NCBI GenBank assembly: GCA_030141605.1 | Contig: JAQGDQ010000251.1 | Coordinates: forward strand, 186,001 to 250,000 | Source: Tubiluchus corallicola | Lineage: Eukaryota > Priapulida > Priapulimorpha > Priapulimorphida > Tubiluchidae | Direction: 5' to 3' | Length of the DNA stretch: 64,000 nucleotides | Shown here: positions 20,095 to 58,649 of the stretch, in pieces | Layout: the number at the start of each line of letters is the position of its first letter | Position numbering within the stretch: the stretch's first letter is position 1 | Position numbers and translations under genes: made by a program | The notes under the pieces: generated by a model | Databases searched by the model: none | Told to the model about the DNA's origin: nothing | The model's input: the letters and a program-made list of their open reading frames with translations, nothing else

Positions 20095-23000
20095 ATGGAG
20101 TTTTTGTGGGTTGTGCTTGTCTCTTGCACATTTGCTGTTGGTACGTTTTATAATTATTGCGGTTTATGACATCCTTTTAGTTCATGTTCAGTCTTTCAAA
20201 ACACATCCGTTTATCAACTGACCACACAAAGCATTTTGTAAAAGGGCTGTGATACTCTAAGACATTAAACGAAAACAGAATGATTGTTCACATCCTACCC
20301 CATTTTGTAGTACAGTAAAAAATATACACATTAACTCCTTCCGGACAGGTACATACATCTGTGATGGGTAAAAACAATGTCTTATTAACTAAAGTGTCCA
20401 CTCTCCAAATTTAATGAAATTTCGAAATGAAGCAGCTAAAATGTAAATACAAGTAAATTATATAAGAACAAAAAAAGATCTGTTGTATTCTTCGCTATCA
20501 GTCTTAGAAGTTTTTTGCAAACTAACGGGCAAAAGTTGTGCTTTGCGTGTTCACAGAATACAGCAACAGCTAGTGCTGACAGTGAGCAGTACTCTGAGCA
20601 CACTTGAATGTTATTTTGCTTTTGAATGTACATATGAAGAATGAAATAATATTAACAGCGTTTTTGAGTTTTTTGAAATTTTGAACAATTTCGTACTTGG
20701 ATTTTCACATTTCGTATCATTCTGTTATTTACTCAACTAAATAAAGAATCTAAGCATTTTATTTGCAATGTTAGAAAAAAATTTTAATTCTGTATCAGAA
20801 AAATATAGTTTTGCACTAGTATATCATGTAATTGGGTCGTTTTGGGCATTTTTGTGCCGGAATATCAAATCTACACAAATATTCGTCATCGTGAAGGAAC
20901 TAAGATGTATAATAGTGTAAAAGCATTTCTGATAATTAACTAATTAGTTAAAAACTTAGTTAACGGCCAGGGAGCCCAACATTCAGTGTAATGTACAAAA
21001 ACTCAGCAAATTATCAGTTTAAAATTCAACATTTAAATTTACCACTGCACTCGTGCATGAGCTCTCCAATGTGTGCACTACATTACAACTGAACACTTCT
21101 GAAATGAGAGGTACAGTACCTGTTTTTTATACAATGCATTTCTGAGATGCAGGCTCTAGTGTCCATGTAACCAGCAACTGGCGAAATGCATGCAACAGCA
21201 AAGAACTAGTGGTGCAAACATGAAATTAGATTTCTATGCTAGTAATTCTTTTATGTAAATCACTCTTGAAAAACGATATGTTCCCTGTAAATATTTTGTA
21301 AAATAGGCTGTTTTAGTATAAGCTGTAGTACAAGATTGGTTCTGGTTCTCCTTTAAGTAAATTGGAAAAAATGGCCTTACTCTTAAAGTGAAAAAGTACT
21401 TTGTTTGGTCACTCATTGTTAATTTTGGTATTTGTGTATCATTTCTTAGATTTAGGCTTTGTGTTATTTAATACCTACGTTGAATGTTAGATAACATTAT
21501 ACATGGTTAATTGATTTATTGGTTCTTAATTTCATCAGTTAAACATTGTGTGATTATTTTAGCATCTGGCAAGTTTATTGGATGTTTTCAAGCTATTGAG
21601 TCTAATTCTCCGGATGCACTTATGCTAAGAACTAGTGACCCTTTCCATATGACCATTATCAAATGCATTCAAGTGTGCAAAGACGATGGGACTATTTATG
21701 TTGGTTTGAAAGGAGGGATTCATTGCTACTGTGGAAATAGGTAGCTAGTTATTATATAATTAAGTTAGCTTATTGATATATATAGTACAGTGCATTCATG
21801 TTGTAAAAGCTTCAGATATGAAAGCAACTTTCAGACACCTATTATTTTAGTAAGTGTTATGCTTTCTGTACTTGTTGAGAAATCATAGATTCTGATTTGG
21901 CTGAAACCATTGAAAGTCGACAAAGCCCTTTATTTATAGTCGCTGGAATGTATCATAATCATAGCCTACTATAAAGAACCACTATAGGATGCAAAGCTGT
22001 TGAGCACTACAAATAATACCTCATATCTTTTTGTCACTTACACCAGCGGTTATGAAGTTTAACACATGAAAATTTAAAGCTTTAGTAAGTGGGTTACATG
22101 TTCATATAATTTTGATCTGGGTTATTTTTTAATTACAATTGTAGTTTTCGAAGTCTTCGCATTTTGGTACCGTTTAAAATAAGTTTCATTCTAGCAGGGT
22201 GATTTGGTCTTGATATATGAAGTACATGAGAAAAACTCTTATTTGTAGGAAAAAAATTGTTTCATCTTTAAAAGTCTTAGATATTCTGAACAGTCTCACC
22301 TTCATAATCTAGCTGAAGTTACCTTTTAATTACACTTTATCACACAAGATATGTTATTTAACTAAAACACTATAATATCTGATTTCTAGCTATAGCACCG
22401 GATCAGCACTTTGCAACGTCCAGTGTAGTGGAGACGCAACTCAGATATGTGGAGACAAAAATGCCTTTTCTGTGTATGATACTGAAATCCCTGGTATGTA
22501 CATGTTTTATGGTAGTACGATGTTTTTTAAAGTGAAATTGTTCAGTTTTAAAGAGGCTAGACATAATTGTGTTGGGTTAGGGGTGCAGAGATGTTTATAT
22601 TATGTTCTGTGTACTTCTCTTTTTTGTTTGCATGTGATTGTTGACTTGTGCAAAAGGTTCACTCTATGCATAATACATATTTCTATCTTGCTTTGCAGGT
22701 TTGCTTTTGTCAAATTATTAAATATACCTTCATGTTTGCATCCTAGTTATTCATGTTACATTGTTTTTATTGAGATAAGCAGATGACGTATTTTTTTTTA
22801 CTTTTTCCTGTTACAGTCTTACAGTGTACTCTTGGTTACTCATCTTCAACTTGTGAGCACATTATTTCACAATGTTAACTTTCAATTGTAACATTTAAAT
22901 GTACTGTCCGCCTTACCTGAAAAAATGAATTATGCATAGAAATTTCAATATTTGAAGTAACAAAATTGTAATCGGCAGGCTGCAATCACATTTTAAGAAT

Positions 23001-26000
23001 TTATACTTTGTTTGCTATAATCACAGCATCGTTTTCTCCTTGTCTTATGCATAATTTATTATAACATTATTAGAGAAACAGATCCCAAAGAAAAAGTTTG
23101 TCACAGGCAAATGCACGCATTCTATTTTCGTCATATTTTGTTCTTAGAACATGTGTTTAATATACATTAAATGGGTATTTGGATAATCCCTCCCACCCAT
23201 ATGTTATTACAGCAAGTTTTGCTGACTACCACTACAAGTAATAAACTGTAAAACTGCCCGTATTTAAGCTTTAAATTTTATTTTGGACTAATTTTGGCAA
23301 CTTGCTTTCTCTGCTTTCAGTCCCAGGTGCACCACTTGCCTTGGAGTTGGTGTCACAAGAAGAAACATCCATTACCATAAAGTGGGAACCCTCTTCTGAG
23401 CCCAGCGGCAAGTTAATTAATTTCGAGGTAATTTATGTTAAAAGTTGACATTTGCTTGCCATTCTTGTGTTGCTTACATATATTGTTTCATCTCATTTGC
23501 TCTATATGGCATTCTGTGTTAAACACTTCTAGTTTGTAGATGTGCTATATATCATTAATTTAGTTTGTTTAAGTCACATAATGCAAGCTATGTGTATCAT
23601 ATCGTACAAGGAATACATGTAATCTGCTATAAAGACTTTATAATAGTTGAGTTATGTTTAGAAAAAATGAATTGATTTGAAAAATGTTGACCAGGTAGAA
23701 CAGCAAAGATTGATATAATATTCATGTATACCCTATTCAGGTTTCAGCGATACCGGAATTTTCATATAATCCTCTTGTGAAGCGAGGGTCTGATAAGTAC
23801 TCTGTCAAGTATACAGTTGCTCCAGATATGTGGAGCTTCAACATTCAGAATTTGCTGCCTGGAAGCGAATATGCTGTGAGAGTTAAAGCCCGAAATGAAG
23901 CTGGTTACAGCAAAGCTGCCAGAAGAAACTTCTGGACGGAGATTGGTGGTAAGTCATGTGATCAGACATTTCTGGCCTGGGAATTTTCGAAGGCTACAGA
24001 CATGTCATGTCTTATTGTGTTTTTTAGGCTTCTGCAGTTGTTTCAAGTGCAGTTTTAAACAAAAGTAGCTATGCTGTAGAATTTATAAAATAACTGTTTG
24101 GAAGAATTCTCTCTCCTTGCCATTTATTCTAAAGTTATCCTTATTTAGAATTGCCTGTAAAATTTGGCTTCGTTGTGCATTTAGTAGGTCAGCCAATCAG
24201 AATTTAGCCCTTCTTTAGTCTATTCTTTGGAAGCGAAGAAATTGTCATGTCTTTTTTGCTTTTCTGTAATGCTGAATTTAAAGTAAATGCTTTTAAAATT
24301 ACTTTAAAACAATAACAAATAAGAAATAGCACTGTACCTGGTAAGCCTATACTTGTAAATTTTCCATATTTACATACGCATTTGTGTAATGCATGGTGGG
24401 TAGAGTTTGAAATTAAAATATTTCACTATGTTTAGAGGTGTTGGTATACCAATTAAACCGGTTGGAATTAATGTTTGTCTTTTGTATCAATGCAGAATGT
24501 GTAATTGTACTGACCACAAGAAGAAGTCATTATGTTTTCTGACCGGTTAATAGCCGATGCCAGTATTCCACTACGTCTGCATAGATACTGACTTTCTTTC
24601 TGTGAAAAAAATTGTTTCCACTGTACTTGTAGAATTGTGCAAATCTCCTTGGATAGGTATAGGAAATGTATTTCTCCTGTATCTTTTTGCTAACTATGTT
24701 AATGCATCTTTCTACATTCTGTCTTATCTAATATTCTAGTTATGTGTACCGCAGACTCCTGGGTAATGTGGTTTGAAAAATTTAATCAACAATGTCGAAA
24801 CATTTAGTGGTAATAGAAACTAAACAAGTTTTGCCATTCAGTATTCATTACTGTTTGACTTCTGCACTAAATGATTGTTCTTCAGCGCCCGAATCACCGC
24901 CGGATGTAACAATCACAGAAAGAACTGCTACATCAATGACTGTGTATTTACCACCAGCGTTTTCATCGAAGGGACCAATATCGTATGTAACAACACTGTT
25001 GTTTTATAAATTTAGAACATACATAAAAATGTGATAATTGTGGAATACATCTAAAATGTCTACAAAATGTGTCTCCTTGTATTACTTTTACAAATAGACT
25101 CTTTTAAACAAACTATAATTGTAAATTTTGGATGTCATGGAATTTTTATTCACAATGATTTGCTATTTATAGCTACATCATACAAATATCCAAAGTATCT
25201 ATAACCTCTTGTTAAGAAATTATCAGTCTTAATAATGTGTTTACTCTTAGTGGTTTTTATTTCAGTGGCTATCATGTAGTACCATTTGACCTCTCTTCGC
25301 CAGTGAAATTTGATCCAGAGAATCTTGTAGGACATGAGGGTGCTCAAGCTCTCGGCTTGCCGTATTATTTAACAGCAAACTTGACTCACAGAAAAGCGCA
25401 AAGCTTGCATCGTTACTTCACTGTTGGCGATCATAACAATTATGGTGGATATTTTAATGCACCTTTGAACAAAGATAAGAAATACACTGTTATCTTCGGA
25501 GTTGTTAGCAGCTTAGATGGGGTAAGGAAATCCGCGAATTTTCAGTTTTCGTATAAGTCATTCAGATGAAGATAAAACGAGAATTTGATCATGAATGAAT
25601 GATTATGAAGGTTCATTTAGCTTTAAGATTGTGTATGTTAATCTTGTGAAAAGTTTTGCTTTTTTGGCCTTTTAATAATTACTCATTAAATAAATTGGAA
25701 GGCCAGTTTTTAAACCTATTTAAACCTAAACTTTTTAAAAGTGATTAGCCTATTTTTATCTGTTTTTAGGATATACAACATTACAAAAAACAGATTAAAA
25801 TATTTAAAATTAACTAACTCTTTAGTTATCTGACACAATCTTAGTTTGCACATCTATTGCATACAAGGTAGTACCTGTTTTAGCTGTTTTTACAATATTT
25901 TTGTAGTTGTTTTTCCTTTACAGATTACAAAGTTAGCATATTCTAAATTTAGAACTTTTGTTGGGTCAGAAAATGACGATGGAATAAATGTTTTTGAAAG

Positions 26001-29000
26001 TAAGTAGTAATGTTGCATAGTGATGAGCAATTAATAGATTAATCGAATTAATCCCGATTGCAACCATACTTAAATCGGTATGATCAGCGATTGAATTGTA
26101 ATTCAATTAATCAAGAGTAAAATATACGCGTTACACACTGACTAAAAGGCAGTGTTTTAGCACAAATAAACGGAATCTCTGCGTTTTTTCTTTATTTTTC
26201 TCACCTTACATAATGCTTGCCATTGCAAACCACAGTATTACAAAGTGGGTGCTTCAAATTGTTCGTTGGCATGTGACATGTGTAGTGACGTAGTCTGAAA
26301 GTCTCAATATAAATAGTTTGCAAATAAAATAGCAGACAGGGACAAAAGCTGTGAAGAAAAAATTGCCGCAAAAGATTAATTGTGATCTCGAATTACAAGA
26401 ACAAGATTATAATCGAATTACAAAATTTCAAAATTGTTCATCACTAATTATTGCATAAGTGGGCCAAAGCTTTTAAATTGTTCTGTTATCAGCATTATGG
26501 TCACTTAGAGGAAGATTTGCAAAAAAAAATAAAGGAATCTGCATGAAATTGAATCTGTATGAAAAAAGAATGAAGCTTATAATGAAAAAACAGTTTTACA
26601 TCTGATGTGTGTGTTGTAATAGGAAGTTAGATTTACTTTTTCAGTAAAAAGAGAAATCCGAAAGTATTATTTCTGAATGTTATATTTAATTTTGTTAAAA
26701 AGAACTATGTATAGCTGTCCTTATTGAACGTTTTGGCTTTTTGCAACTTCTAATATTTTTTATTGCACCGGATATAGTAATTTAAAACAGACATCATAAA
26801 ACTACATAAGTTAGTCTACAATAGTTTAACAAGTATATTAGTCTAAAATAGTTTAACAAGTATATAAACATTAAAAGCGAATTTTTAACTCTAACTGGCA
26901 AGAATAACACGCCTTGAATTAATTAGCTACGTACCTACTGGCATAGAGAGATAGTATTTGCTGTACGTGTCAAGAGATGTTATCTACCAGCTTTTGGGTT
27001 TCAAAGCTTACATGTATAGGTTTGTTTTGGATTAAAACACTGGTTGGAGCAGATATTATGGTGGAACCCATGAATTGCATATCTTGTCATGGCATGTCGG
27101 TTCTGCCTCTTGGGTTTTTTCATTCATTATGAGTCATTGCTGGTGTATTATAGACTACCAGTTTTCTTTGAATATACCTTATCTTTGACCTTTTCTAAAC
27201 ATTTGTAGAATTTTTGAGTCTGGGGTACTTTGAAGTATATATAAATTTCAATGCTAAGTCTATCTGCATTACACAGCAAGAATTTTCGCATTTAAACTTC
27301 TTTGGTATTAAACATTTGTGATGTTTTTATTTTATTTAGATGTTGGAATTGCCAATAAGAAATTTGGAAGTGCAAGTGGTGCTTCAGAAGAACTCGATGC
27401 TTCTCAAAGACGACGAGCAAAAATTCTGGGTTCTGTGATAGGGCTGCTGCTGTTTGCTCTTCTGGCAGTTATCATCGTTTACCTCTTTTTACGATTTTAT
27501 TGGTTCAAGAAAAAGCGTCGCAGTAGGATCGAACGGCAAGGGTTAACGAATCTTGCAGCACCAGAACTCCCTCCTCGGGTAAGCTGTTGTTTTCATATAA
27601 TATGGCGATATCTTGGAAGAGGATGCATTTTGGTAGTGGCAGTTGTTTCTGTTCGTGTCAGGCAAAGCTGTGTTCACACATATACTGTCAAATCATGTTA
27701 GAACACTACTAAATATGGCATTGTAGCGGAATTGGAGGTAGGGCGTTCATGAAATGTCAAAGCCGTTCTACTGTGTAACATCGATTTTGTTTCCTAGTTA
27801 ATTTTAATATGTGATAAATAGGTGTAGTATATAGCATTATTGTACCTATGTCAATACAACTGTTATACTGCACATTTTGCTGCATTAACACTGCAGGTAT
27901 AGTTCTACGCTGGTACCTTGCAAAACTTTTACATAATGCAAGGTAGAGGAGCAATCTTGTGAAATACTGGCAATTATTCAACTGTTGATAAGAAAAATAT
28001 ACAGCCACGCGGTCCACACTCCCAACATAACATTATTGGGCACCGCCGCACATAAGTTAATCTTGTGTCGAACCAGTACAGCTTTAACGGCCTTTAAATT
28101 GTACTGAATCGTAGCTATGCAGTTCTTGTACTAATGCATGCTTCTTGCTCAAAACCTGAACATTCACTTTCATAGAGTCACTTGATGCGAAACCTAAATC
28201 TTAATTTAAACAACTTTTGATGTTCAGAGATTGTTGTTTTTACAATAGAATGGCTGTTTTTCTACAGCAATTCATTGTGCTCTATCTTCATTGATATTAT
28301 AACAGGGTAAGTTTATTATGTAAAATGGAGTTTTGACACAGCTGATATATTGGTGGATGGCAGTAAGTGAGGTTGGCATTACTTCTTATATTGTTTAAAT
28401 TATTGCTGGTTTAAGTGGCTGTACATCTAGCTTAACTAACAATTTTAGTATCTCAGAGACTATCTAATAATGATGACTTCAGCCACTATTGACGTTCATT
28501 CATTATTGTTTCACTTTTTTTCTTTTGGTCATGTTTGTTGTTAAAATAATTGTGGGTTTATTCCATAATTAAGGTTTGACGATTATACAATAAATAATCA
28601 TTTTGAAATTGAGATTTGTAATAATTAATGGATTGCTTGCGGTCTCTTCTAGCCTCTAAATGTAATTATTGTTGGTTAAACTATTTTTGACGGCTCTGCT
28701 TAGTGAGCTGTTATGATTGATTTAATACTTGCCATAAATAGAAAGGGGCATGCAGCTAGTGATTCTGGTATTCAAATTGCAATCCAAAGGTCCTTGTTCA
28801 AATCCAAACACAGTACCAACCTTTTTTCGCATTTCTTTTTTTGATTAAGTTGGGTTTCAAAATTCATTAAATATGTTTATTCTATAGTTAGCCAATAATC
28901 TTCAAATCAAGATATAAGTAATTAACTAACTAGTTATGCAATTGTTTAAAATTATTTGGTAATCAATTGGGTACCACATGGTTTCTATAGAATGAGAATG

Positions 29001-32000
29001 GTATTTACATCAACGAAGAGTACGTTGATGACAATGGTGAAGTTGACATCAACATTCAACTTTCTGCGTTAAAAGACAAATGCTGGAAGATTCCGAATGA
29101 AAACATGCGATTTGCAAGCAGTGGGGAAGTGCTGGGTGTCGGACGCTTTGGTGATGTTCTCAAAGCAAAAATTGTAACATCGGATAGGGGCAAAACAGCA
29201 GCACTCGTTCCTTACAGAGGTAAATACAGAGAAAATTTGTGGTGATTTTGATTTTTTTTAGAAATTTTTGAGGGTCATTAAATTTCAGCAGACTGTCTTC
29301 ATAAAGAATAATATCTTTATGAAAAATAGCACAATAAAGAAATTATTTTTTTATTAATTGACGTTATTGACAGGTATTATTCCCGTTGTTAACACTTAGG
29401 TGCTATGCATTAGTGACCTTGTGCATGGTGTGAAATCTCAAAACGAAATTTTTTTCTCGAAATGAAGAATGAAAAATTGTTTTTGAACATTTAAACATTA
29501 GTAGTAATTGTCTTAACCTATTACGTCAGCAACTCTTTCTCATCTAAAAGGCTGGATTAGAACCTTCTGGGGTTTCTAGGCTAATGAAATTATGATGCCC
29601 CTTCAGACAAAGTCAAGGGCCCTTTATCTTAAATAAGTTGCCACTTTTTTTAAATTGTGTTTTTAGACTCTCGGGCCGCCTTTTTAAAACTTGAAATTTT
29701 ATTTTAAGTTAAGTGAGTCATTCAGCAATGCAAAATAGTAAAATATTATACTCATTTTTCAGAAAAAATCTTTTTAAAAATCTTTTAGCAGGGCCCCTCG
29801 AAGTTGGGGGGCCCTAGGCTGCAGCCTGTAATTGATTGAAAATTAGTAGCTTAAAAATGTCATGTCCTGAGACTGTTACTTATCATACTGAAATATAATT
29901 CAGCAGTGTCAAAGTAGCAATCCCATTGTGTCAAAAACTGATTTTTACATTGCAACATTGCAACGATCACATACGCTACACGGTCATAAAAATTTTTAAC
30001 CAAGACCAAGGCAGGCAAATTATTAATTACAAATTGCATCATTTTTTACAGATTTAAATTCTAACCGATAAATTAATCATTAATAATTTTTTCAGAAGAA
30101 AGAGGTGAAGATTTAAAGAGAGAGTTTGTTGCAGAACTTGATAAAATGATTAGACTGGGGAAGCAGCCTAATGCAGTGTCACTTATTGGAATCTCAGAAA
30201 GAGAAGGTACAGCATCTCCTTGTACAACTTAATTCATGTGCATAAAATTGGTGACTCTTTTGCATTACGTATAGTCGTGATGATGATGATGATTATTACT
30301 TCATTTAAAAATATACAGTTTGCAAAGACAAATGGATGTTAATAAAATAAATATTGGGAAGTTAGTAAATAACTTATTTACAATAATTCAACTTTGTAAT
30401 GCCCACTCATTTCTGTACTACTGTAATTGTATTTCAATATATGGTCTTGTAAGAATCTATACCTGGTATCTTAAAACACAATCTTTAAATGAGTTCTTTA
30501 CCTTTAACTTTACATTTTCGTTTAGATTTACAGTACAGCCAGTATTTTAATCTTAAATTTACTTGACTGTCATTTACATAGCAGCCTAGCTTTGGAATTG
30601 GTCAACGTTCTAGACTTCGCAATTTTTGTCAAAAATTTTTTTACATCTATCTATTAACTAATTCCCATTTGTGTCCTAAAGATATATTAACAATTTGACC
30701 CTATCATTTTGTCTAAAATCGAATATTTTTCTATAAGCAGTGTTTGGTATACTGCCAATTTTGCATCCATATAACAGAATTGGTAGACAATATGTATTGA
30801 TATGTATTGATTAGAGTCTTAATTTTTTTTTTGTGATCTGTCATAAATCACATAATTTATTCAGTTACATGATGACTATCACAGCAAATTAGATGGATGT
30901 TTTACTCAAGTAGTATCTAATCAGTTGACTGGTTGTTTTAGTTAAATTGGATATGAAATCTTGTGTGCGTATATTACAGGTTCTATCCATGCTGCCATCG
31001 AGCATGTTTCTGGTCCAAATCTCAGAGATGCATTGAGAGCCAGCAGAACAAACACTAAGTCTGGTGGTCGGGTGTCACAGTTCAACGAAGAGCAGTTATT
31101 CAAACTTGCTGTGGGAATTGCCCATGGCATGCAGTGCCTGTCTCAAAACAGAGTATGAATATTGTCTAGATATTACAGTAATATTAAAAATTTAAGTGTC
31201 ATTAACTAGGCTGCACAATTGTCTTAATAGAGAAATAGGTGTAAAAGAACACCAAACTCTAACATTTTGATACATTTGTTCAAGTGTAATAGTGTTGTTA
31301 TTTGAGATTTTTTAAATTTTGCGTCCATAGTTACTGAGAATTAATGTGATTCAATGTTGACAGTATGACAAATTGTCTATGTTTTTGATGTAGGGTTTTA
31401 TTTCATTTATCATCAATTTGTTACTGTGCTAGAACAGACACAGCAAGACACATCAGAAATTTCAGAATTGTCTACTATTGGTAAGTATATTGTAAAGAGT
31501 CAGTTGCATCTGCATTGAGAGTATTAGTGCAGCATATATGTCTGTATTAAATGCTCACATATATAGTACATGGAAACAGATTTCTTCTCTTATCAGTTGT
31601 ATAATTATTGTGGCATACATCAAGGTGTTCATTCCTACATTTATAATTATTATAAACACTTGTTATAAAAGCCGGCACTATCAGTTTTACGTGAGAGTGG
31701 ATTCAAAATCCAGGTTTTTATATTTTAACATGATATATTAACAGGAAATTGTTTACCATATATACGTGTGTACAAGTCGACCTTATGTACAAGCCAACCA
31801 TAAAATATTAAGATCTAACAGATTAAATGATGTCAACAATGGCCGAGTAATAAATCAATAGCCTACTGTGTTAGTGTGTAAGGTATGTGCAAGTGCCTGG
31901 GCCGAGTATATTATACCTACCTATGTGTGTATATATGTATATGTATATTCATGTTGAGGGCCCTCAATGCAATCCATGATAATGCAGCCTGGCCTTTTAT

Positions 32001-35000
32001 CGCGCATAATTGTTTGTAATGCCTTTAACTCTAGGATATCGCGGCCAGGATATAAGGAAGGATTATTTCTTTACATATTCGTATTGTAGACAGTTTAGCG
32101 ACATCTCCCAAAAACATATCGTAAGTATAAGTTGACCCCAAAAATTTCACCTTAAAATCGCTTCCCAAAAATTCGACATGTACATAAGTATATACGGTAA
32201 TTAAAGTATTTTGTGGTATTTTATGCTGTTGTCACTAAGCATTGTAAAATGGTTGAGGACATTTTTGCAAGAACGGAAAGTGGCTCTAAACAGCTTTAGA
32301 AATTCTGTGATTCGTAGACTTGAATTTAAATAGATTTTAATCTATGTTTATTTGATGTTAGTTTATGCATTGGCAGATGACATTAATCTTACCAAAATCT
32401 TCACTTCTGATGTGTCTTGCTGTGTCATGGTTCAACTCAATTCAGCATATTAATATCGCAAACTGAATCTTAGATAATTTCAGGTCTCTTATGAAAGCAT
32501 TAACATGCGAAATGTGTTAGATCATCAAGTAAATGTTTTGAATGGACTCCTTGTTATTAAAAGTTGTTCATAAATTTTTCTTTGCAATTTCAGATCATAC
32601 ACAAGCAGTTAGCTGCTAAAGTTATTGTGTTAGTAGATGGTAGTATACCCAAGATTACTCAGTTTAGCCTTTCTAAATATAGCAATGAACGACAGGTAAC
32701 TGTAAATATCACACAGCTGTACTTATATACAACTAACAATTGTATTTAAATGCTATTTACTTGAAAGGATATAGTCAAATCCTGGTAATACGATTTTCAA
32801 GAGACTAAAATATTTTTTCATAATAATGGAAGACAGGATGATTTTTCCTATACTGCCCCATTTTCAAGTTTGATAAAAAGTATACATTTTAACACAATTA
32901 ATATTGCAAAAGTGTTTCTGATAATTAAATAATATATTAAAAACTTAATTAATGGCAGGTGATCCCAACTATTGATGACATCACAAACGAACATAATTTT
33001 CAACTGCAGAAATATTCCACGAGCGTCTTGCACGTGTTTGCAAAAGCGAAAATTGAAGTACTGTGCTACTATAAGATATTCAGTGTGTTATTCTGAAACT
33101 AGGCATGTTTTAAGATAAAAATTCAAATTTCAAATACCGCTGTGCTCACACTTGAGCTGTCAAACGTGTGTAGTTCGTCAGAAACTAACACAGCTGAACT
33201 GAGAGGTACAGTACCTGTTCTTTTATAATGCCTTTCCGAAATGCAGGTGCTAGTGCCCGTCTAACTAGCGAATGGCAAAATGCATGTAACAGCGAAGAAC
33301 TAGTGCGGCGAATGCGAAATTGTATTTGTGTGGTAATAATTCTTTCACGTAAGTCATTTTTGAAAAAATAGTGTGTTCCCTTTCAATATTTTAAAAAGTA
33401 GATTGTTTTGACCTATAGTTTAATATTGGGTCCGGTTTTGCTTTAAGCGTGTTTAGTAATATCCATTTCGCACATTGATCTTAACTCCTAATATGTTATT
33501 TCTAATGTAAAATAGCAATTAACTGATGCTTATAGTCTTTACTTTGGTTTTCTTTTAATCGGTGAACATAATTTAAGCTTGTTTAGCCTTCAGTTTCCCA
33601 TAAGTACAAACTACAAAGAACAGTTGCCAGTCAGTCTAGAAGCAAGAGGGTGCCAGAGAGTCTGTCGTTTTTTGCTGCTTTGGCATCATAACTCGATAAC
33701 TGTAAACAGACAGCAGTAACAAATATAAGTAACATATAGCAGGCAAATTTTTATTAGAATAGGTAGCGGAAGTCTTTTTGGAAATCACTAATTTAGCTGT
33801 GTGCATTTAAACCTATGCAGCTACTGATTTAATCAACAGTAGGCCTAGCTGTGATGCTGTACGTACATGCATTATGTCATGATCGCATGATGAGTTGTAA
33901 GAAATCAGTTATTAAGCTATGGGTACTGTTGGCAACAAGTGAAGAGTACCTAGACGGGGCGAGTCTTTGAGAAATCAATGTATAAAATGGGCGTTTCGTG
34001 ATAAATAGTTTCATATTAACCATAAATGATTACGTAGGTTTTATTATAATTTTGGCAGGAACATAATAAAATCATCGTACAACTGAGAGTTTCGTTATAA
34101 GCTGAATCGTATTTTCGGGATTCAACTGTACTTAGTTAATATCAAATAATATTATGTTGTGTTTTTTAGAAAAATGCTAAGAGCATACTTGACTTTCCTG
34201 GCATTATTTATTAGGCAGAATTACAATGCCTAAACTTATTTCAGCCATTGATATCAGTTGCATTACTTAATGAAAGGGGAAATTACAGTGTCTTTTTGAC
34301 ATAGCGTAATCGTATGTTTCAGATGGGAAGTTTTATGAGATGGCAATCTGTGGAAAGTCTTCGGCCTAAAATTTACACTTCCATGAGTGATGTTTGGTCA
34401 TTTGGTGTAGTGTTGTGGGAAATAATGTCATTAGGTTAGTTAAAAAAACATCATGACTAATTATGGTACAGCAGTGTCATAAGTCCAGCTTTGATTCTAA
34501 ATACATGAAATTTTTTTTAAAATTTGGTCTTATTACACAGGATATGCCATGTTATCTGTGTGTGTTTTTGCACCAGCACATCAGCTTGTCGAAATAAACT
34601 TTTAATTGTTTTTTTAGACTGATTCCCCTGTAAGTTATGAGTTATCCTATGGGTATAAGCCAACCTCAGTACTTGGTTTTGAAGCCAAAGTTGTTTAAAC
34701 GCAAACCATTTTTAAGAAATTGTGGCTGTAATTATACAGAAGTATAATGTTTTGTTGTTAATTCCTAATTATACATCTATCATTTAAACACTCTTTTTTC
34801 GTTTGTTTAGTTTTTCATTACAAAATTCTATGTATCGTAACACTTTGTAGGAGGCACGCCTTATACAGAAACAAGGAGTCAGGATTTGGATGAAAAATTG
34901 TCAAAAAATACCAGGTTGCCTCGACCTTATGGCTGCTCTGATGATTTGTAAGTACAGTTGTTACTCTCTTATCTCTTTACAATGATACAACAGTAAAGTA

Positions 35001-36391
35001 ACCGAACATTTGTAAATTTATATAAAGATACTTTATAAGAGTAAACAACCCTGTTGTAGTTTTACTTCTTACTGCTTTTAGTTTCTTTCTGATTAAGGCA
35101 ACCGTGGCCACGCCCTGTTTTGTATCACACCTTTAGAGTAAAACCTTCAAAGTGTTTCGAAAGTAGCATTTTTCTTATCAGTTGGAGCGTGATATTATAT
35201 TTCTTATATTATATAGTACTTAATATAAGCATAAAACATTGGCAAATTTTCCTACTGAGTATGAAAAAGTTTATGGTATGATTATATTCATTATCGTGCC
35301 CTACCGTATGATTATATTCATTGTTGTGGCCTACCATATTATATTCATTATCATGGCCTACCAATAGCATGACAATTTTTTATAGCTTTACAATAAAAGT
35401 ACAGTAATGCAAAAGCATGAATATTGCATTTATACTGAAATTAAAAGTAATTCATTATTCCTAGCATTATTATTGTAAAAAAACATTTTACTTCTAGTTC
35501 ATTTTATATTAACTGTGCATTTTCAAATTTATGTATAAATAAATAAAGAATATAATTATTGATCAGAGCTTGTTAACTAGTTATGATATTCATCAAGCTG
35601 TCACTGTTTTGCGTACGGCATTATTTTTAGTTGAATGTTGGTAATGATGGTCAAACAAATTTTGTGAGTTTATCACTGAACTGTACTAAGCGACAAAAAG
35701 ACAAAAATGTCAGACTGACCTAATTAGTTCCCAAAAAAATTCTGGTCATTTCCCAAAATTTAATACAGAACCTTTATCGTCGGACTACTTCTTTCATTTC
35801 AAATATCATCTAACCTTATTAATGTAGTGGTTTTATGTTAACCATGTATATGTCCAGATGTAATGCTGTATTGTACTTTGTGGTGTAGTCATTCCCTTTA
35901 TTATTCTATTGTCAGCTGTATAGGCATTGTGTCAAATGTTGTAAACACCTATGTAAAATAAATTTTACTTACTTTGATTGTAGGTATCAAATAATGCTTC
36001 AATGTTGGGAACTGGATCCAGACAATCGACCGGATTTTGCTGAACTTTATGGAGTTTTACAGACTATGGGCTCTGAAAAAGTGAGTTACTGATTGCCACT
36101 TGTTCATGACTAGATGCTTATTGTAATTTTTATTTAACTGATGCCTTATAAATCCCATCTGTATAAATCTAGTTATGTCTGTTCCTAATGAATTGCTGAC
36201 ATATCAATGACATTCGTTTCCCATTGTAGTAAGTTAATAAAACTTGATGTGCTCAGTGATTTATCACACGTTTCTTTGCATTGGCTATAATTTTTTTAAT
36301 GTTATTTTATGAATTTCAGAATCACTTGACACTAAATTGGCATCAGAAGTTTTACTATCAACCTATTGATGGGACAAAAGATAACAACTAA
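20095..36391 (+). CDS. Wsck: Wsck-like receptor: WSC, FN3, transmembrane, tyrosine-kinase-like pseudokinase
   Basis: Complete 767-residue type I membrane protein in 17 exons: 20095-20140, 21563-21740, 22390-22493, 23321-23427, 23741-23948, 24886-24982, 25266-25521, 25924-25999, 27340-27578, 28991-29219, 30096-30206, 30980-31152, 32594-32695, 34323-34434, 34851-34947, 35984-36080 and 36320-36391 (stop TAA). All phases agree. An in-frame ATG at 20077 would add six residues, but the one at 20095 has the better Kozak context. Residues 1-16 are a signal peptide. The WSC domain, about 18-108, has eight cysteines (23, 50, 54, 70, 72, 83, 87, 95). FN3-like regions follow at 110-214 and from 215, then a membrane-proximal segment to 357. 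The membrane helix is about 387-409. The kinase-like domain is about 480-755. The glycine loop GVGRFG (486-491), the alpha-C glutamate (E527) and [12 protein letters not shown] are kept. The VAIK lysine is V510, HRD is HKQ (611-613), the catalytic-loop asparagine is V618 and DFG is QFS (631-633). The domain order matches Drosophila Wsck. Confidence 0.93.
20900..21365 (+). repeat. Dispersed repeat, copy 1 (Wsck-like intron 1)
   Basis: Shares long stretches with 32885-33455, for example GAGAGGTACAGTACCTGTT, GCATGTAACAGC/GCATGCAACAGC-AAAGAACTAGTG and TTCTGATAATTAA. The outer edges are approximate. No coding capacity or clear termini were seen. Confidence 0.7.
26018..26446 (+). mobile_element. 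Non-autonomous hAT-type MITE, copy 1
   Basis: 429 bp in intron 8 of the Wsck-like gene, with inverted termini TAGTGATGAGCAATT and AATTGTTCATCACTA. Flanks ATGTTGCA and TTATTGCA (offset one base) look like a diverged 8-bp target duplication. It is homologous, in reverse orientation, to 41946-42449; for example, ACAAGAACAAGATT pairs with the complement near 41985. Confidence 0.7.
26811..26864. repeat. Two tandem 27-bp units
   Basis: The unit starting TTAGTCTACAATAGTTTAAC at 26811 is repeated directly at 26838 with one substitution. Confidence 0.85.
28741..28830 (+). repeat. tRNA-like SINE or tRNA pseudogene fragment
   Basis: TAGTGATTCTGG resembles a degenerate pol III A box. TTGTTCAAATCCAAAC resembles a T-arm/B box, and a run of T follows. 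Pairing of the arms is poor, so it is not a functional tRNA. It lies in intron 9 of the Wsck-like gene. Confidence 0.3.
29560..29830. mobile_element. Transposon-derived segment with GGGCCC/GGCTGCAGCC motif
   Basis: GC-rich ends in an AT-rich intron: AGGGCCCTTTATC near 29627 and AGGGCCCCTCGAAGTT...GGCTGCAGCC near 29791. The right part is homologous in reverse to about 50380-50440. The class is uncertain. Confidence 0.4.
32885..33455 (+). repeat. Dispersed repeat, copy 2 (Wsck-like intron 13)
   Basis: Second copy of the repeat at 20900-21365, in the same orientation and diverged by substitutions and small indels. The two copies flank most of the gene, so recombination between them would delete exons 2-13. 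Confidence 0.7.
35277..35363. repeat. 30-bp minisatellite, three copies
   Basis: Units of the form TATGATTATATTCATTATCG followed by TGCCCTACCG start at 35277, 35307 and 35337; the last is shortened. It lies in intron 15 of the Wsck-like gene. Confidence 0.85.
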
Positions 36392-42200: not shown

Positions 42201-45200
42201 AAGAGAATAAGAAGCCCCAGTTTGCATCACTACGGTTTGCAACTGTGTGCATTTTGTAAGGTCAGAAAAATGAAGAATTCTGTTTATTTGTACTAAAACA
42301 CTGCTTTGTTTAGTCAGTGTGTAACACCTATGTTTTGCTCTCGATTAATCTTGATTAACTGAATTACTGTTCAATAGCCGGTTACATATCAATTTATACG
42401 TGGTTGTAATCTCGATTAATTAAATTAATCTATAAATTGCCCATCACTGGGTGACTTCTACTGTCATTTCAAGCATTTAAAATCAAGTCTATATAGCTGT
42501 TGCATTTACACAGTGCATGTACAGGCAACCACACACTGGCCTTGAAATATAGTTTTATGCTTCGTTTTTATCTTGTCATTTTCTGTTCTACTTGCTGAAA
42601 GACATTTTGTGTTGCAATATTTGAACATCATAAATGCAAATATAGTAACCAAAGAATGCAGCAGTGGATTATGGCTAGGCAGACAGGCACCAAATAGTGT
42701 GTTGCATGAAATCAGTAGGGCAGACATAGTAGCTGCAACTTCTGTTAGTACTTTATAGAATGCCAGTACAACAAAAAGAAATTTCACGCTTTCAACTAAG
42801 GCAAAAATTTATAATTAAAACACTTCTTATCAAATGAATAGTAAAATGAATCGTAGCTAAATGGGGAGTCGCTAAGTGAGAGCTGACTGTGCATTATGTG
42901 CTGGTCAGCTACTGGTGCAAATTGGTTACTTTTAGACTATGGGCATCTATAAGAAAATTCCTCAGTATCTGGCATCGTTCATAATAGAATACTGCAAAAA
43001 TGTGTAAAGAGTCCAAAAGCAAATGTCTAAATTATTGATACTTAGTTTAATATTTTAAACAGGCCTGAAATCCGAGTTAATCATTGATTTCTGATCGGTG
43101 ATGTATTATCGATAAAAGTACCAAAAATTCCCAGTTAACTTGAATTGGACTAATTTTAACTGATTGGATAATTTTACTTTGAACAACAGTGAATTCTTAA
43201 ATGGCATATCAACAAGTGATGAATATCCGTAATTTATCAAGAAAACACATCTCAAAAGCTTAGGATAGGATAGGATTTCTTATATTTTGCAAACAACCGA
43301 AAAACTGGCTTGTGTAATAGCAGATTTATTTGCTTTGTAAATGACCGGGTTTATAACAAACTAATGTTGTATATTAGTAATACTGGCATGCAGTATACAT
43401 GCCAGGGTTACTAATATACAGTAATACAATCCTAAATAAATTCTTTACATCTGATTTTCTGGCTTGCAAATTTCACAATTATGTTGTCAATTATATGAAG
43501 TCATTTAGATATTCATTTTCAATAGATTTTATGTTAATCAAGGTGCTTTTGTTGACAAGATGACCTCATATAGCTTTTAATTAGTCTAAGACTCTAACTT
43601 AGAAAATGATCTTTCTCTTCATTTAAAATCATTTAAGAAAAAACTATGGCATGTCGTAGGTTTTGCATCTGTTCCCTCACCCAGAAACATTTGTCATTTT
43701 TGTACTTTATTCATAACAATTCTGTACCTTTGAAAGCAAAATAAAAACCACTAATTTTTATTCTGTAGCAAACACTTGGCTGTTTAATCGTTGATACAGT
43801 TGACAAAATCGGGAACTGTCGGGGCCTCTGACGCTTGGAGGTCCTCCTGCACCACCGACAGAGCCGCCGTGGTAGTTGTGGCTCTGAGCGCAGAGTATTT
43901 ATAACCAGGTTGGAATCATAGAAAATGGCCAGCTCTGATTAATTCAATTGGTGATTACAAGCTTATGCAATGTAAGATGACTGCAACAGCCGTAATTTAT
44001 TATGATGTGTCTTACAGGAACTAACCGATATTTTTCACAAGTTGCCTCGGCTTTCCACGTTGGAGTTACTTATGTTGATGCGGCTACAGACGTTAAACAC
44101 ATCACCGATGCCATAACAGACAAAACTAGGGTGAGTTAGTAAAAGCTAAACTTTCTTTGATATGAGATATTTATGTTTATTGATTTGCTATTTGCTTTGC
44201 TTCTTGAGATTACTGTTTTTGTTTCTGTCTTAAATTCATTCAATAGATGAATTTATTCATCCAGTGAATACAATAATAGTATAAATTTATTATTACCCAA
44301 ATGCTAACTTTGTATTTAAATTCTTCATGTGATTACTATTTGTAACTTTACTTCTCTGTTATTTAAATTTGTGATGAGAGTTCGCAAAACTATTTTTGCC
44401 TCTACAGTATAAAATAACATGACAAATTAATTTTAATGTTGTATTATTTTTGTATAATAGCCAGTAATCACCCAAAAGTTTTCCTGCGCCTGTAAGTAAG
44501 CCTTTACTTTTAATAAGAGGCAGCTGATTAAGTGACGAACAGGCCTTTCACTGCTCTTTCTCAGTTATATTTAAATTTTTATGTAATCATATTCTTTTTA
44601 AACAAAAAAAGTTGGGTTGAAAAAATAAAGCTGAGTTGAATTGAATTGCATTGTTCATTTTAATGAGAAGTTACTTGCTTACTTGTATAACATTGTTAAT
44701 GAGCTAAAATTGTTTTCAGAATTTGCTTGTTATGAAAATAGTTTGTGCCATGTTCCCATATAGTGAAATAGCAAATCAGTCTAGTTTTATAGTGTAGGAA
44801 GGAGAATAGCTGCATGGTCAATATATGGGCATGGTAACTAAAGTTAATTATTGCTGAGATTAGTCAGGAGCAGGATGGGTGACTGCCAGAAAATTTTTTT
44901 TGTTGGTTTCATTTGCCATACTGACTCTTGTTATTAACCTCGTTAAGTTAGGATGTGTACACAGCCTAGATGGCAAAGGTGCTTCTGCTGATTAAGTTCC
45001 ACTTTTCAGATGATTATTCTTGATAAGGCGCTAACTTCTGGTACTGCCACAAACAGCTACACTAAGTATATTCTGCCTTTGGGTGCTTCATTTCTGGTTG
45101 TAGTGTGACAAATTGCTTAAAAACAATGTACAAACGGATATCGCAGAAAAGAAGTCTTCAAATATTCTTCGGATAAAAACAAACTCTTTTTCATAATCTG

Positions 45201-48200
45201 CATTGAAGCATCGTATTATTTCAAGTTTTTCTTTTCAAAAGGCAGAACAATAAGCCTTTTCACAGTTCCAGCAATTGATGATGATCATGAAAAGGTCCAA
45301 GGTTAAGTGAACCAGACAATGCATTTGTGTACACTTGACAATGCCTTGCAGCCCTTGCTATTGTAATAGTAACAATTTTAACAGCTAGCTAGAACATTAC
45401 CTAGTTAATTTTTCTTGTTCCCAAGCAAGATACTGCTAGTAAAATACTCTACATTGCCCAGATTAATGCACAATTAAGTAAAGTCTGCGTAAAACAACTG
45501 AAGTTATTGAACTGATGTGACAGACGACTTTGATTTGCCTACATGTCACATGACTTTTGTAGTTAAGACATGTTTCTTGGGTTCACTAAACCTTTGACCT
45601 ACAGCAACTGTGCATGCACATAGCAAAACTGTGAAAAGGCTTATTACTTTCGTTTGAGCAACCAAATGAGCTTTTAAGTGTATTTAGTGTGATAGATTGT
45701 GAAGTGTCCACATGAATGCATACTCTAACTTTTCTTGGTTGTTACTTAGATGGTGTGGATAGAGACTCCGACAAATCCTACCTTATGCTTGGTGGACATT
45801 AAGGCCGTTGCAGCTGAAGTCAAGAAACATAAGAACATATTTATGGTAGTTGACAACACGTTTATGACGCCTTATTTTCAGCGACCGCTGGAGCTGGGTG
45901 CTGACGTTGTGCTTCATTCTTTGACTAAATATATGAATGGTATGAATTATGATTTACTGTTAACTGAGTTACCCTTTAATGCTGAAAGCATAAGTTATTT
46001 AACTTTTCTGTGAAACTGAACATTTTTAATGGGTTTCTTTACACTTTGAATTGCTCATGTTGTTGAGCACAATTGTGCAAATATAAATTTTACTGGTGGC
46101 TGGGAATAGCTGAAAAGATATTGAAAAAAACACAGGTATTTAACACTGTGATAGCATCTTTAGTGTAAAACATCCATGGTTTTCAATGAAACAAGGTGAC
46201 ATTAAAATAAATTTTAGATACTTCAACACATAACCCATTGTATTAATGAATGTTTTCTCAGACGTTCGTAAACTTCAATGCTATACACATGTTTCTTCTT
46301 TTTGTAAGTTTGCATTCAGTTATTTACATTAATATGTGAAGTTATCAAACACGTGTATTTCAAGTTTGACTGTCAAAAGATTGCTTTTGTAGTTGCTTGT
46401 GTTTTTGTTGCACAATTCTAATTCACATTTTCTTACATCTTTATGTATGTTGATGCTGTGCATTTTTTATCAGCATTTCAGCATATTTTTTCCAGTATGT
46501 TGAATGGACATGTATCGAAGTTGCTAAGATTACGTCTGTTGCCATTTTGATTCTAAACATTATTTGATTATTTGTAGGTCATAGTGACTCTATTATGGGG
46601 GCTTTAGTTACAAACAGTGATGCTATAGAGGATAAACTAAGATTCTTACAAAATGGTAAGTTATGTGTAATTATATTTTCTTTGTGATTTTGTAAGTTGT
46701 TGTGTAGTAATTTGTATATTCTCCTTGTAAACTATGATGCACTTGCAGGTTGAATCCTTTTTATGTTACAGCAATTGGTGCGATTCCAAGTCCGTTCGAT
46801 TGCTACTTGGTTAACCGAGGCCTGAAAACGCTGCATCTGCGCATGCAGTGCCATATGAAAAACGGTTTGGCCGTTGCTAGATATTTGGAAAAAGATCCCC
46901 GGGTACTGAAGGTCATCCATCCAGGTAGGTTTGGAAGATATTAGACTTCGTTAGCTCAAAGATGAGTGATGAGTTACCAAACAATTTTGCAAAGATTACT
47001 TTGTTTAATAATTGACCGATTAGATGATTGTATTGGATTAAAGTGGTAGATTGCTAACAGTAAAAGAATTGCTATTCGTAAATCTCAGCATTAAGCCAAG
47101 TAGTCATCAGCAGTTATCATGCTTTACCGAGTTTCGAGGCTTAACTGGACACTCCACGTGGTGCCCACAATAGCAAAGATGATAGTTGGTTATTCCACCA
47201 GTGAAATTAGTTTTTCTCCTGTGTTGTGTAAGAATTTATGATTTTTTTATGGTATTATTTAAATTTTATGTCGAATGACTTGCACAAGATACCTGTTGGT
47301 GATCGGTTAACTTCTAAATACAGTCACAAAATCAAAGCTCTACAATTACCGAATGAGAAACTATAAATTTTAAACCTTCCAAACTCACTTTATGTTTATA
47401 ATGACACTCTTTTAATAAAACTTGTAATCAGCACTTACTGAGGCAATTATGGTCTGCGTCATTAACTCTATAATGCTGAATTATCAGAGGGCAGTATTGT
47501 TTTACGTTGGTTTATGACTCATTTTCATAAACAGTTGAGAATTAATTTAATTTTAACTTTCAGGGCTCGAGTCACATCCTCAGTATCAATTGGCTAAGAC
47601 TCAGTGCCGTGGATATTCTGGAATGTGCTCGTTTTATGTAAAAGGTGGCCTGAAAGAAGCTACAACTTTTCTAAGTTCTTTGAAGGTACGTAATTGCATA
47701 TGATTGCTTTGGAGAAGTGCAACCATACCATTTTCTCATTTTGCTGCTGTTTATTTTCAGAAGCTGTTAAATTAGTTTTTGTTACGGACTTGCAAATGTA
47801 TAATATATGGAACATTTGTGTTATACATACGTAATGGAGATGACTATATGTCTGCCAGAAAATGGTCCAAAACTGGCGCATAAATAATACCTGTGCAGTA
47901 TACGTTCTTTGGGTCATAAGTTTTTAGAATACAACGAAAAAGTCTGTTTGTGCGTAACGTTATTGAAATCTTTCTTATCCTGATTTCTAGCTAATTTTTC
48001 TACTATGCAAAGTTGCTTATGCAAGTTAAGAGTTCAATGACTTTATATGTTTTCCCCAGAAACGCATTTATGATTTATTTATGCCAATGACTAATAAAAG
48101 TTGTATTGTCAGACAGATGGTATTAACAAAATAAAGGTAACTAGGCTGTCAGGCTTGCTGCTGAGTTTGTTCCCAGAGTCCTTTACTACATGCAGAGAGT

Positions 48201-52290: not shown

Positions 52291-52810
52291 TGGAAAGGGG
52301 AAAAAATTTCCCCTATGAAGCAAAAACCGAAAAATGGGGGTTGGGAGCAGAAATGTTTAAGTGTCTTGGAATATTACCTTGTAGCATATCAAATGAAAGG
52401 TCTCGATGAGACGAGTTGAATGGCAAAGGTTACAATGAGAATAGTTAATCCGCGACCCCGTTAGGGGGAAAAACTGAAAAATGAGGGTCGGGAACTGAAG
52501 TGCACCGAACGTTGAGCAATGATGCCTTGTAGCACATCAAATGAAAGGTCTCGATGAGGCATATTGAATGGCATAGGTTGCAACGAGAACAGCTAATTTG
52601 CGACCCCTCTAGGGGGCAAAAACCGAAACATTAAGGTCGGGAACAGAAATGCATCGAGTGTCTACGAATAGTACCATGTAGCATATTAAATGAAAGGTCT
52701 TACTAAATGAGGCGAATCGAATGATATGGGTTATAGCGTGAATAGTTAACCTGTGACCCAGTTAGGGGCAAAATAGGGGTCGAGGAGACAAATGCCTTCC
52801 AGGGTCTACC
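52290..52810. repeat. 148-bp tandem repeat array, about 3.5 copies
   Basis: The core GTAGCATATCAAATGAAAGG (and close variants) occurs at 52381, 52529 and 52678, giving periods of 148 and 149. Each copy also carries TTAGGGGGAAAAACTGAAAA-type and GGGTCGGGAACAGAAATGC-type segments. The period is not a multiple of three, so it is not a protein repeat. Confidence 0.85.
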
Positions 52811-56600: not shown

Positions 56601-58115
56601 GATACTGCCTTTATTAACAAATTATTAAAAGCACATTAGCTATTGAAGTCAAACATATTGGTCTATTGCTCCGCCCCCACTTGTAACTTAAGCACGTTCA
56701 ACAGCATTCGGGAAACAGCTCACGCAGGACAACAACTATCCAAGCTAAACTAAACAACATGATGGTCACTGATTGCGCTTTTTCATAAACATAGATTTGC
56801 AGAGCAGCAGATGACTTTTCAATTTAAACAGAATAGAGACGAAGTTTCAAAGCACTACAAAATACAGAGACATAAGCATAATAAAGAAACCAAGCAAATT
56901 ACTATTACAAAAATTAGCAACAAAAATATTAAGTCTCTCTTGCCATTAAACATACGAACATCAAACCTGCGATGTATTTTGCTATATTAACTGATAATGT
57001 GCTCGTCTGCAAGATTTCTTCAGTTTTTGTATTTTTCCGTTTGTCAGGCTACGGATATGGAACAAATTTGACTAAGTCCCAATGGCATCCTTAACCCATG
57101 ATTATAGACAGAAAAATAGCGTAGAATTAGCTAATATTACATTGATGTATAATATAAGTTTTGACCACATTTGAATTATTTTGACTGTGAAGATGAGGTT
57201 TATAAAAACTGGCCTGAAATGAAAACATTTTTGTCCTTATTTAAAGTTAATCTAGTAGTTGTTTTTATCTAACTTGCAAAGCCATAAACTAAACTAAACT
57301 GCATATTTTCTTGATTGCAAAATGGTTTAAACAGCAACTCATAGACATAAGCGTTGTCCATTTCTTCCCATAAACGAAACTAGACTATATATTTCCACTA
57401 ATTCATTTGCAATTTCAATTGACAATAATAAAATCTAGAACCAGGCCAATATTTCTCCCGCTAACTAATGAAAAGTCGAGCATTTTTAATAACAGCAATA
57501 GGCGGAGCTGTAGCTAAATGTCCCGAACGTGCCTGCAGGGGTGCGAAACACTTGCATGCTGATTGGGCAGTCAACGAAAACGATTGACATTATGTTAGAC
57601 GCCAATTGTTAGTTCAAGAATAACGATAGAAGACGGCGACAGAAACGCTTCAAATATGGTCGATGAACAACACAATGATATTGTATACACTATAGTGCCT
57701 CCTTGACACTTGACGCTTCTGTAAAAAAATTAAGTGGCTTCACAAAATTGCGTAAACTTACTCCATGCGTTTTAATACCAGCCATGCCAACACGTAGAAG
57801 GCTAGCACTCCTGCGCTTACTATAGCAACAGTCCATACACTTTTAGTGAGGCATCCATCCCATCAGACCGGGTAGGGTCTACTTGCTCACCAGTTTCTTT
57901 CACTGTTAAAAATATAAAAAATTAGTTCATGGTAATATTAGTAAAAATTTATTTTAAGCGAAAAAAGAAGGATAAAAATGCAACCGGCCTACCGATAATA
58001 AGGGACACAGTTGTATACTGGTCCAATTGTGAAGACATTTTATTTTTTCTATTACTATTATTATTATTATCATCATCATCATCATCATCATCAACAACAA
58101 CAACAACAACAACAA

Positions 58116-58178
<63 letters not shown>

Positions 58179-58649
58179 TAAACACAGTGCTTGAGAAAAC
58201 TTATAGCGATCCTTTCGTATGCTAATTATTTTTTCGTTTTCTAAATTAGCTCAATTCAAAAAAAAAATATTATCGTGCTTTTTAAATCACCTTAATTCAA
58301 TATCTACCAAAAACTCTGTAATTCTGTAATTTTGACGAGACTTTCACCTCACATTTGAAGAAAAAAGCAATTTATATCGAAACATAATGATAGTGTTTAA
58401 AGCAAAGTATTTAATAACCCTGTTCAAGCTGGTGAAACATAATTTATTTTAATTCGTTTAATCCAGTTACGTATTATTAATATAATATATTATTTAAACG
58501 ATTATAATTATGATATCTGACGGAATCGAGCGATGACGTACCAATCTTCACTAAGTGACTACGTACACAGGCAATGACGTCATAAATACTCACTCTTTAC
58601 CTGGCCGACAACCGCGTCTCTTTGATATTTATCATTTTACCTAACAAAT
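53664..58649 (-). CDS. Tentative small single-pass membrane protein (microprotein) gene
   Basis: Three minus-strand exons join in phase: 58649-58601, 57839-57762 and 53763-53664. Translation from the ATG in the first gives about 70 residues. These are a short N terminus (MINIKETRLSA), one hydrophobic helix (VWTVAIVSAGVLAFYVLAWL) and a basic cytoplasmic-type tail (KRMEYRRRHVKMYVPIDVEL then GCAVFKGIPVVERR) ending VS-stop. The first acceptor (CATCCTTCTCTTTACAG), the donor after ATG-GA, and the last acceptor (TTTTTTCAG) are strong. The acceptor CTAAAAG at 57840 is weak. A better one at 57903 would put a frameshift or stop before the helix. The last exon may instead splice on to 53379. I do not recognise the family. 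An AATAAA signal is present near 53516. Confidence 0.35.
54540..54660. repeat. Small inverted-repeat cluster
   Basis: Contains GATGCGT-CTAAAC-ACGCATC, plus a second complementary pair, ATCAGTTTTTAGACTG with CAGTTTAAAAACTGAT. It is probably a small foldback element. Confidence 0.5.
54900..55195 (-). pseudogene. LINE (non-LTR retrotransposon) C-terminal remnant
   Basis: The minus-strand frame ending at 54998 reads RICKNC...NKVEDKLHVITEC, with C-x2-C and H-x4-C spacing. This resembles the C-terminal zinc-knuckle region after reverse transcriptase in many LINEs (R-x-C-x2-C...ED-x2-H-x4-C). After a stop at LNAS the similarity seems to continue in another frame (NVEVIKINARLVHKIFEDMP), so the copy is frameshifted. 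It is cut off at 55195 by other repeat sequence. Confidence 0.6.
55195..56640. mobile_element. Transposon debris
   Basis: Several GC-rich element-like ends are visible: ACTAGGCAGTTGCGTCAGGC near 55204, CAGGGGCGTATTTAGC near 55993, its partial complement GATACGCCCTG near 56526, and CTAGAGCCGATACTGCC near 56593. The 55993-56535 pair could bound one non-autonomous DNA element. No protein was recovered. Confidence 0.4.
58056..58178. repeat. Compound trinucleotide microsatellite
   Basis: Runs of TTA, then TCA, then CAA, then a long run of TCA, about 120 bp in all. It is open in several frames (poly-Asp, poly-Met, poly-Ser) purely because of its periodicity. It lies in the proposed first intron of the tentative minus-strand microprotein gene. 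Confidence 0.95.
58575..58582. promoter_or_regulatory. CRE palindrome TGACGTCA
   Basis: Perfect CREB/ATF-type site, with another ATGACGTA nearby at about 58534. It may mark a promoter near 58.6 kb; function is inferred. Confidence 0.3.

Follow-up and report, generated by a model that had tools for sequence, protein, structure and literature searches.

A Wsck-type receptor gene that most likely encodes a maintained pseudokinase

Within the stretch of 64 kb of DNA analysed here (the window), a gene was found whose predicted product is very probably an orthologue of Drosophila Wsck, namely a single-pass WSC and FN3 receptor with a catalytically dead kinase domain that is kept by selection. An earlier note on this DNA had read the locus as a maintained pseudokinase receptor rather than as a product of decay, and this reading is supported by two results: the reading frame is open, and a glutamine at a key catalytic position is shared with the fly protein.

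The gene lies on the + strand at positions 20095-36391 and, as a hand-joined model of 17 exons, is complete and intact. Its coding sequence of 2304 nt translates into 767 amino acids, with a single stop codon at the very end. The exons, with what they encode and the evidence for each, are as follows.

Exon 1, 20095-20140, + strand: start codon and probable signal peptide; GT donor, with a phase that fits exon 2.
Exons 2, 3 and 4, 21563-21740, 22390-22493 and 23321-23427, + strand: WSC domain and start of the first FN3 domain; Pfam, PDB, splice sites and phase.
Exons 5 and 6, 23741-23948 and 24886-24982, + strand: within the stretch of exons 5-8 that encodes the remainder of the first and the whole second FN3-type domain; Pfam and PDB.
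Exons 7 and 8, 25266-25521 and 25924-25999, + strand: within the same stretch; Pfam and PDB.
Exon 9, 27340-27578, + strand: membrane-proximal stalk, transmembrane helix and basic stop-transfer sequence; hydropathy and phase.
Exon 10, 28991-29219, + strand: juxtamembrane tyrosines, glycine loop GVGRFG and beta3 strand AALV; TIE2 alignment.
Exons 11 and 12, 30096-30206 and 30980-31152, + strand: alpha-C, hinge and alpha-D/E; TIE2 alignment, and for exon 11 a tblastn match at 1.3e-4.
Exon 13, 32594-32695, + strand: degenerate catalytic loop HKQLAAKV, and QFS at the DFG position; TIE2 alignment.
Exons 14 and 15, 34323-34434 and 34851-34947, + strand: SVE at the APE position; TIE2 alignment, and tblastn matches with TIE2 at 1.7e-9 (exon 14) and 0.001 (exon 15).
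Exons 16 and 17, 35984-36080 and 36320-36391, + strand: end of the kinase lobe, TIE2-like tail KFYYQPID and stop codon; TIE2 alignment.

Exons 10-17 (28991-36391) make up the intracellular half of the gene. The earlier note had placed the kinase losses in uninterrupted, phase-consistent exons, and this holds for the full model, in which the 17-exon frame is open, all 16 introns are of the GT-AG type and all phases agree. Exon junctions were placed at GT and AG sites so as to keep the frame, however, so that a control in which none of 20,000 random joins of non-exon pieces (of equal length, from the same stretch) was open is a weak one, and the Pfam domain matches constitute the stronger evidence for the model. 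Exon 1, which is short and without homology support, is the least certain.

Based on Pfam and hydropathy, the encoded protein starts with a probable signal peptide, followed by a WSC domain (aa 20-96, Pfam 2e-14), a first FN3 domain (aa 113-203, Pfam fn3, 5e-16), a second, RPTP-like FN3-type domain (aa 227-336, Pfam Fn3_PTPRU, 1.3e-13), one transmembrane helix at approximately aa 386-408 (hydropathy windows starting at aa 386-390, with a top 19-residue mean of 3.17) and a tyrosine-kinase domain (aa 482-734, Pfam PK_Tyr_Ser-Thr, 8.6e-56). Two juxtamembrane tyrosines, Y443 (within YINE) and Y448, are encoded by exon 10.

Repeats were found both in the introns and further away. Two copies of an interspersed repeat, 73% identical, occupy parts of intron 1 (20981-21357) and intron 13 (33078-33447), while a second dispersed repeat has one copy in intron 8 (26019-26255) and another in opposite orientation, 73% identical, at 42211-42448. 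An imperfect tandem repeat with a unit of about 150 bp and copies 74-77% alike spans 52320-52773, and a long trinucleotide repeat at 57926-58250 gives rise to three ORFs that encode poly-Ser, poly-Asp and poly-Met (one on the + strand, two on the - strand). The Pfam search of the neighbourhood, a partial annotation that covered 10 of the 43 ORFs of at least 75 aa outside the Wsck-type gene, identified an ORF for a Cys/Met metabolism PLP-dependent enzyme downstream (45750-46010, + strand, Pfam 4e-28) and, upstream and on the opposite strand, an RFX transcription factor gene, represented by an ORF with an RFX DNA-binding domain (815-1039, - strand, Pfam 7.9e-26). The fly gene, given as CG31127, has been tabulated among X-box (RFX site) candidates (PMC2375033); the proximity of the two genes here is probably a coincidence.

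The residues on which catalysis depends were compared with those of TIE2. In this alignment, the beta3 lysine is replaced by V510 (29207-29209) and HRD by HKQ at residues 611-613 (32600-32608), with the histidine kept, the arginine changed to K612 and the aspartate to Q613. The catalytic-loop asparagine is V618 (32621-32623) and the arginine K617, and DFG reads QFS at residues 631-633 (32660-32668), with the phenylalanine kept, the aspartate changed to Q631 and the glycine to S633. This agrees with the earlier observation that the ATP-binding lysine, the HRD aspartate and asparagine, and the DFG aspartate are all replaced. The landmarks of the kinase fold, likewise said to be retained, could be recognized in the same alignment: the three glycines of the glycine loop, Glu527 of alpha-C, Glu653 of the APE position, Asp665 and Trp667 of alpha-F (SDVWS) and Arg727 of alpha-H/I are all kept. 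As for the activation segment, a tyrosine pair is indeed missing, Y637 being its one tyrosine, while the description "very short" was a mild overstatement for a segment of 23 residues (QFS to VE) against 27 in TIE2.

Among 93 alignment columns identical in TIE2 and EGFR, 61 are also kept in this receptor and 32 are lost, and the catalytic K, D, N and D columns all fall among the lost ones (hypergeometric P ~0.012, a rough value, given that two reference kinases only were used and the columns were picked beforehand by role). With its catalytic aspartate gone and a kinase domain still recognizable by Pfam and by alignment to TIE2, the protein qualifies as a predicted pseudokinase. Its intact glycine loop may formally still allow ATP to be bound without the lysine. 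A single-sequence AlphaFold2 prediction of the kinase domain alone was unusable (mean pLDDT 35.1, pTM 0.26).

One could argue that the domain is still an active kinase in which catalytic residues have been displaced, as in the WNK kinases, which use a different lysine, or that it has weak activity similar to that of ERBB3. The retained glycine loop and alpha-C glutamate would fit such a kinase, but the catalytic base, the Mg-binding aspartate, the loop asparagine and the lysine are gone together, and ERBB3, unlike the receptor described here, retains its DFG motif (HRN/DFG in the tables available from PMC2754085), making residual activity very unlikely.

Whether the same residues are lost in Drosophila Wsck can be judged, for the HRD and DFG aspartates, from a survey of 2009, the available part of which covers 82 kinase-like non-kinases from four species (human, mouse, rat, and fly), selected for the absence of the catalytic aspartate (PMC2754085). 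WSCK_DROME (P83097, 809 aa) is one of these, with the motifs HRQ, VFG, and APE (Table 2) and the architecture TM-WSC-fn3-TM-PKLNK; the WSC domain is described there as likely carbohydrate binding. Compared on printed motifs and domain order rather than by protein alignment, the two proteins share the order WSC-fn3-TM-kinase-like, have similar lengths (809 and 767 aa), and have both exchanged the HRD aspartate for glutamine and lost the DFG aspartate (valine in the fly, glutamine here). The family architecture of a signal peptide or N-terminal transmembrane segment, WSC, fn3, transmembrane and kinase-like domains is thus recovered by Pfam and hydropathy, and so is the family's HxQ motif (HKQ here, HRQ in P83097). 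By our by-eye count of Tables 1-4 of the survey, none of the 82 proteins other than WSCK_DROME has a glutamine at this position (8 of the 82 have no residue there). A shared change this rare supports both orthology and an ancestral loss, and on these sequences the loss of catalysis is probably old, ancestry being its simplest explanation. The printed fly protein differs in keeping the HRD arginine, the DFG glycine, and APE (HRQ, VFG, and APE, against HKQ, QFS, and SVE), and a second FN3-type domain was recognized here that its printed architecture lacks.

The greater number of changed motif positions than in the fly, together with the loss of all four key catalytic residues, could also be expected of a decaying pseudogene that has stayed open by chance after a recent inactivation. 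When neutral evolution was simulated with substitutions only, however, copies mostly lost their frame within a few percent of change: at 5% substitutions, 5 of 400 copies of the whole coding sequence and 50 of 400 copies of the kinase part alone were still open, and at 10% these numbers had fallen to 0 and 3 of 400, respectively. Provided that the genes are orthologous, as the domain order and the shared glutamine suggest, the inactivation shared with Drosophila is far older than 5-10% divergence, implying that selection keeps the frame. As the splice sites of the open 17-exon frame are intact as well, and as the fly protein already lacks the catalytic aspartate, with the same replacement, which makes the loss probably an old one, we consider decay scarcely credible.

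We also searched the window for exons that might restore the lost motifs. A six-frame scan of the whole window with patterns for HRDxxxxN, DFG, and APE gave zero matches, and eight matches to a VA(V/I)K-like pattern all fell outside the gene. A tblastn search with the TIE2 kinase domain matched the modelled exons 11, 13, 14, 15, and 16 and gave one chance match (E 7.4), although its sensitivity was limited, as the modelled exons 10, 12, and 17 were missed. By these motif scans and this search of limited sensitivity, no exon restoring the kinase motifs was found in the window. Although the introns are long, the gene model was built from DNA sequence, and a diverged exon could escape tblastn as exons 10, 12, and 17 did, these searches and the same glutamine in the printed fly motif make it most improbable that the true transcript uses alternative exons with intact motifs or that the stretch is misassembled.

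A maintained pseudokinase receptor would likely act as a non-catalytic co-receptor or scaffold. Its WSC/FN3 ectodomain may bind an extracellular ligand, while the pseudokinase domain may serve an active receptor kinase as scaffold or allosteric partner, recruiting or regulating further partners. Such a partner kinase may phosphorylate the juxtamembrane tyrosines Y443 and Y448 in trans, the former of which lies in a YxN motif of the kind bound by the SH2 domain of Grb2. In Helicoverpa, RNAi knockdown of Wsck lowered JH III-induced Kr-h1 and Ca2+ and left the phosphorylation of MET1 and TAI unaffected, and only CAD96CA and FGFR1 bound JH III, according to the available text of the study, which treats Wsck as an RTK and whose evidence on Wsck is RNAi alone (PMC11908783). 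These data could suit a non-catalytic accessory receptor, while falling short of proof.

That Wsck is a pseudokinase is not new, as the fly protein has been in print as a non-kinase since 2009 (PMC2754085). The receptor described here adds a well-preserved member to a pseudokinase family that was already known, and the finding was largely anticipated. No paper on the function of Wsck as a pseudokinase was found among the open-licence papers searched. What the present gene suggests is that the dead Wsck kinase is no oddity of Drosophila: the state would be old and preserved in a second species, in which additional motif positions have changed and the remainder of the kinase fold has been retained. 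This speaks against handling Wsck like any other RTK, as was done in a fly RTK panel (PMC3174217) and a juvenile hormone receptor screen (PMC11908783), and makes it worthwhile to test for a co-receptor role.

Compared by phmmer with PDB chains, a set confined to solved kinases and thus without insect Tie, the kinase domain found its best single-domain match in TIE2 (~201 bits, against 158 for RET and 154 for FGFR2) among the best 60 of 844 matches; the top whole-chain E-value among these 60 belonged to an EGFR construct in which the kinase occurs twice, at 111 bits per copy. The kinase-like domain of fly Wsck, by contrast, has Eph as its nearest subfamily in the available tables of PMC2754085. 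A search of genome contigs for relatives returned one bacterial kinase at 23% identity, and a search of viral contigs returned none. The alignment with TIE2 (112 of 279 aligned residues, approximately 40% identity) runs into the carboxyl-terminal tail, where KFTYAGID of TIE2 aligns with KFYYQPID (KFxYxxID). TIE2 differs in possessing the catalytic residues, and the tyrosine of the YVN motif in its tail is a histidine in this receptor.

TIE2 also has FN3 repeats in its ectodomain; TIE receptors combine these with Ig and EGF domains and are not known to have a WSC domain. The Wsck-type receptor does not share this TIE ectodomain: Pfam recognized WSC and two FN3-type domains in it and, at E-values up to 0.01, no Ig or EGF domain. 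A tie between Wsck and the TIE lineage, as suggested by the kinase sequence, is best regarded as a lead. It is a rather long shot that Wsck is an arthropod TIE-lineage pseudokinase with a WSC/RPTP-like FN3 ectodomain, which would be the silent partner of an active RTK, be it the insect Tie-like receptor or a different one, and would thereby parallel, independently, the TIE1-TIE2 pair of vertebrates.

RPTP-mu and Kremen-1 resemble the receptor in modules of the ectodomain only: the FN3 pair of RPTP-mu is the top PDB match of the ectodomain (2.4e-17), and the WSC domain resembles that of Kremen-1 (best PDB match 1.3e-6). In its mode of action, the receptor may resemble PTK7/Otk, ERBB3 and further receptor pseudokinases, which are also single-pass receptors with a kinase fold that lacks catalytic residues. 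Their ectodomains and kinase subfamilies differ from those of the present receptor. As far as the available texts go, PTK7/Otk, which is a Wnt co-receptor (PMC10930971), and the TIE1-TIE2 heterodimers (PMC8145142) both offer precedents for a receptor kinase of weak or no activity that modulates another receptor.
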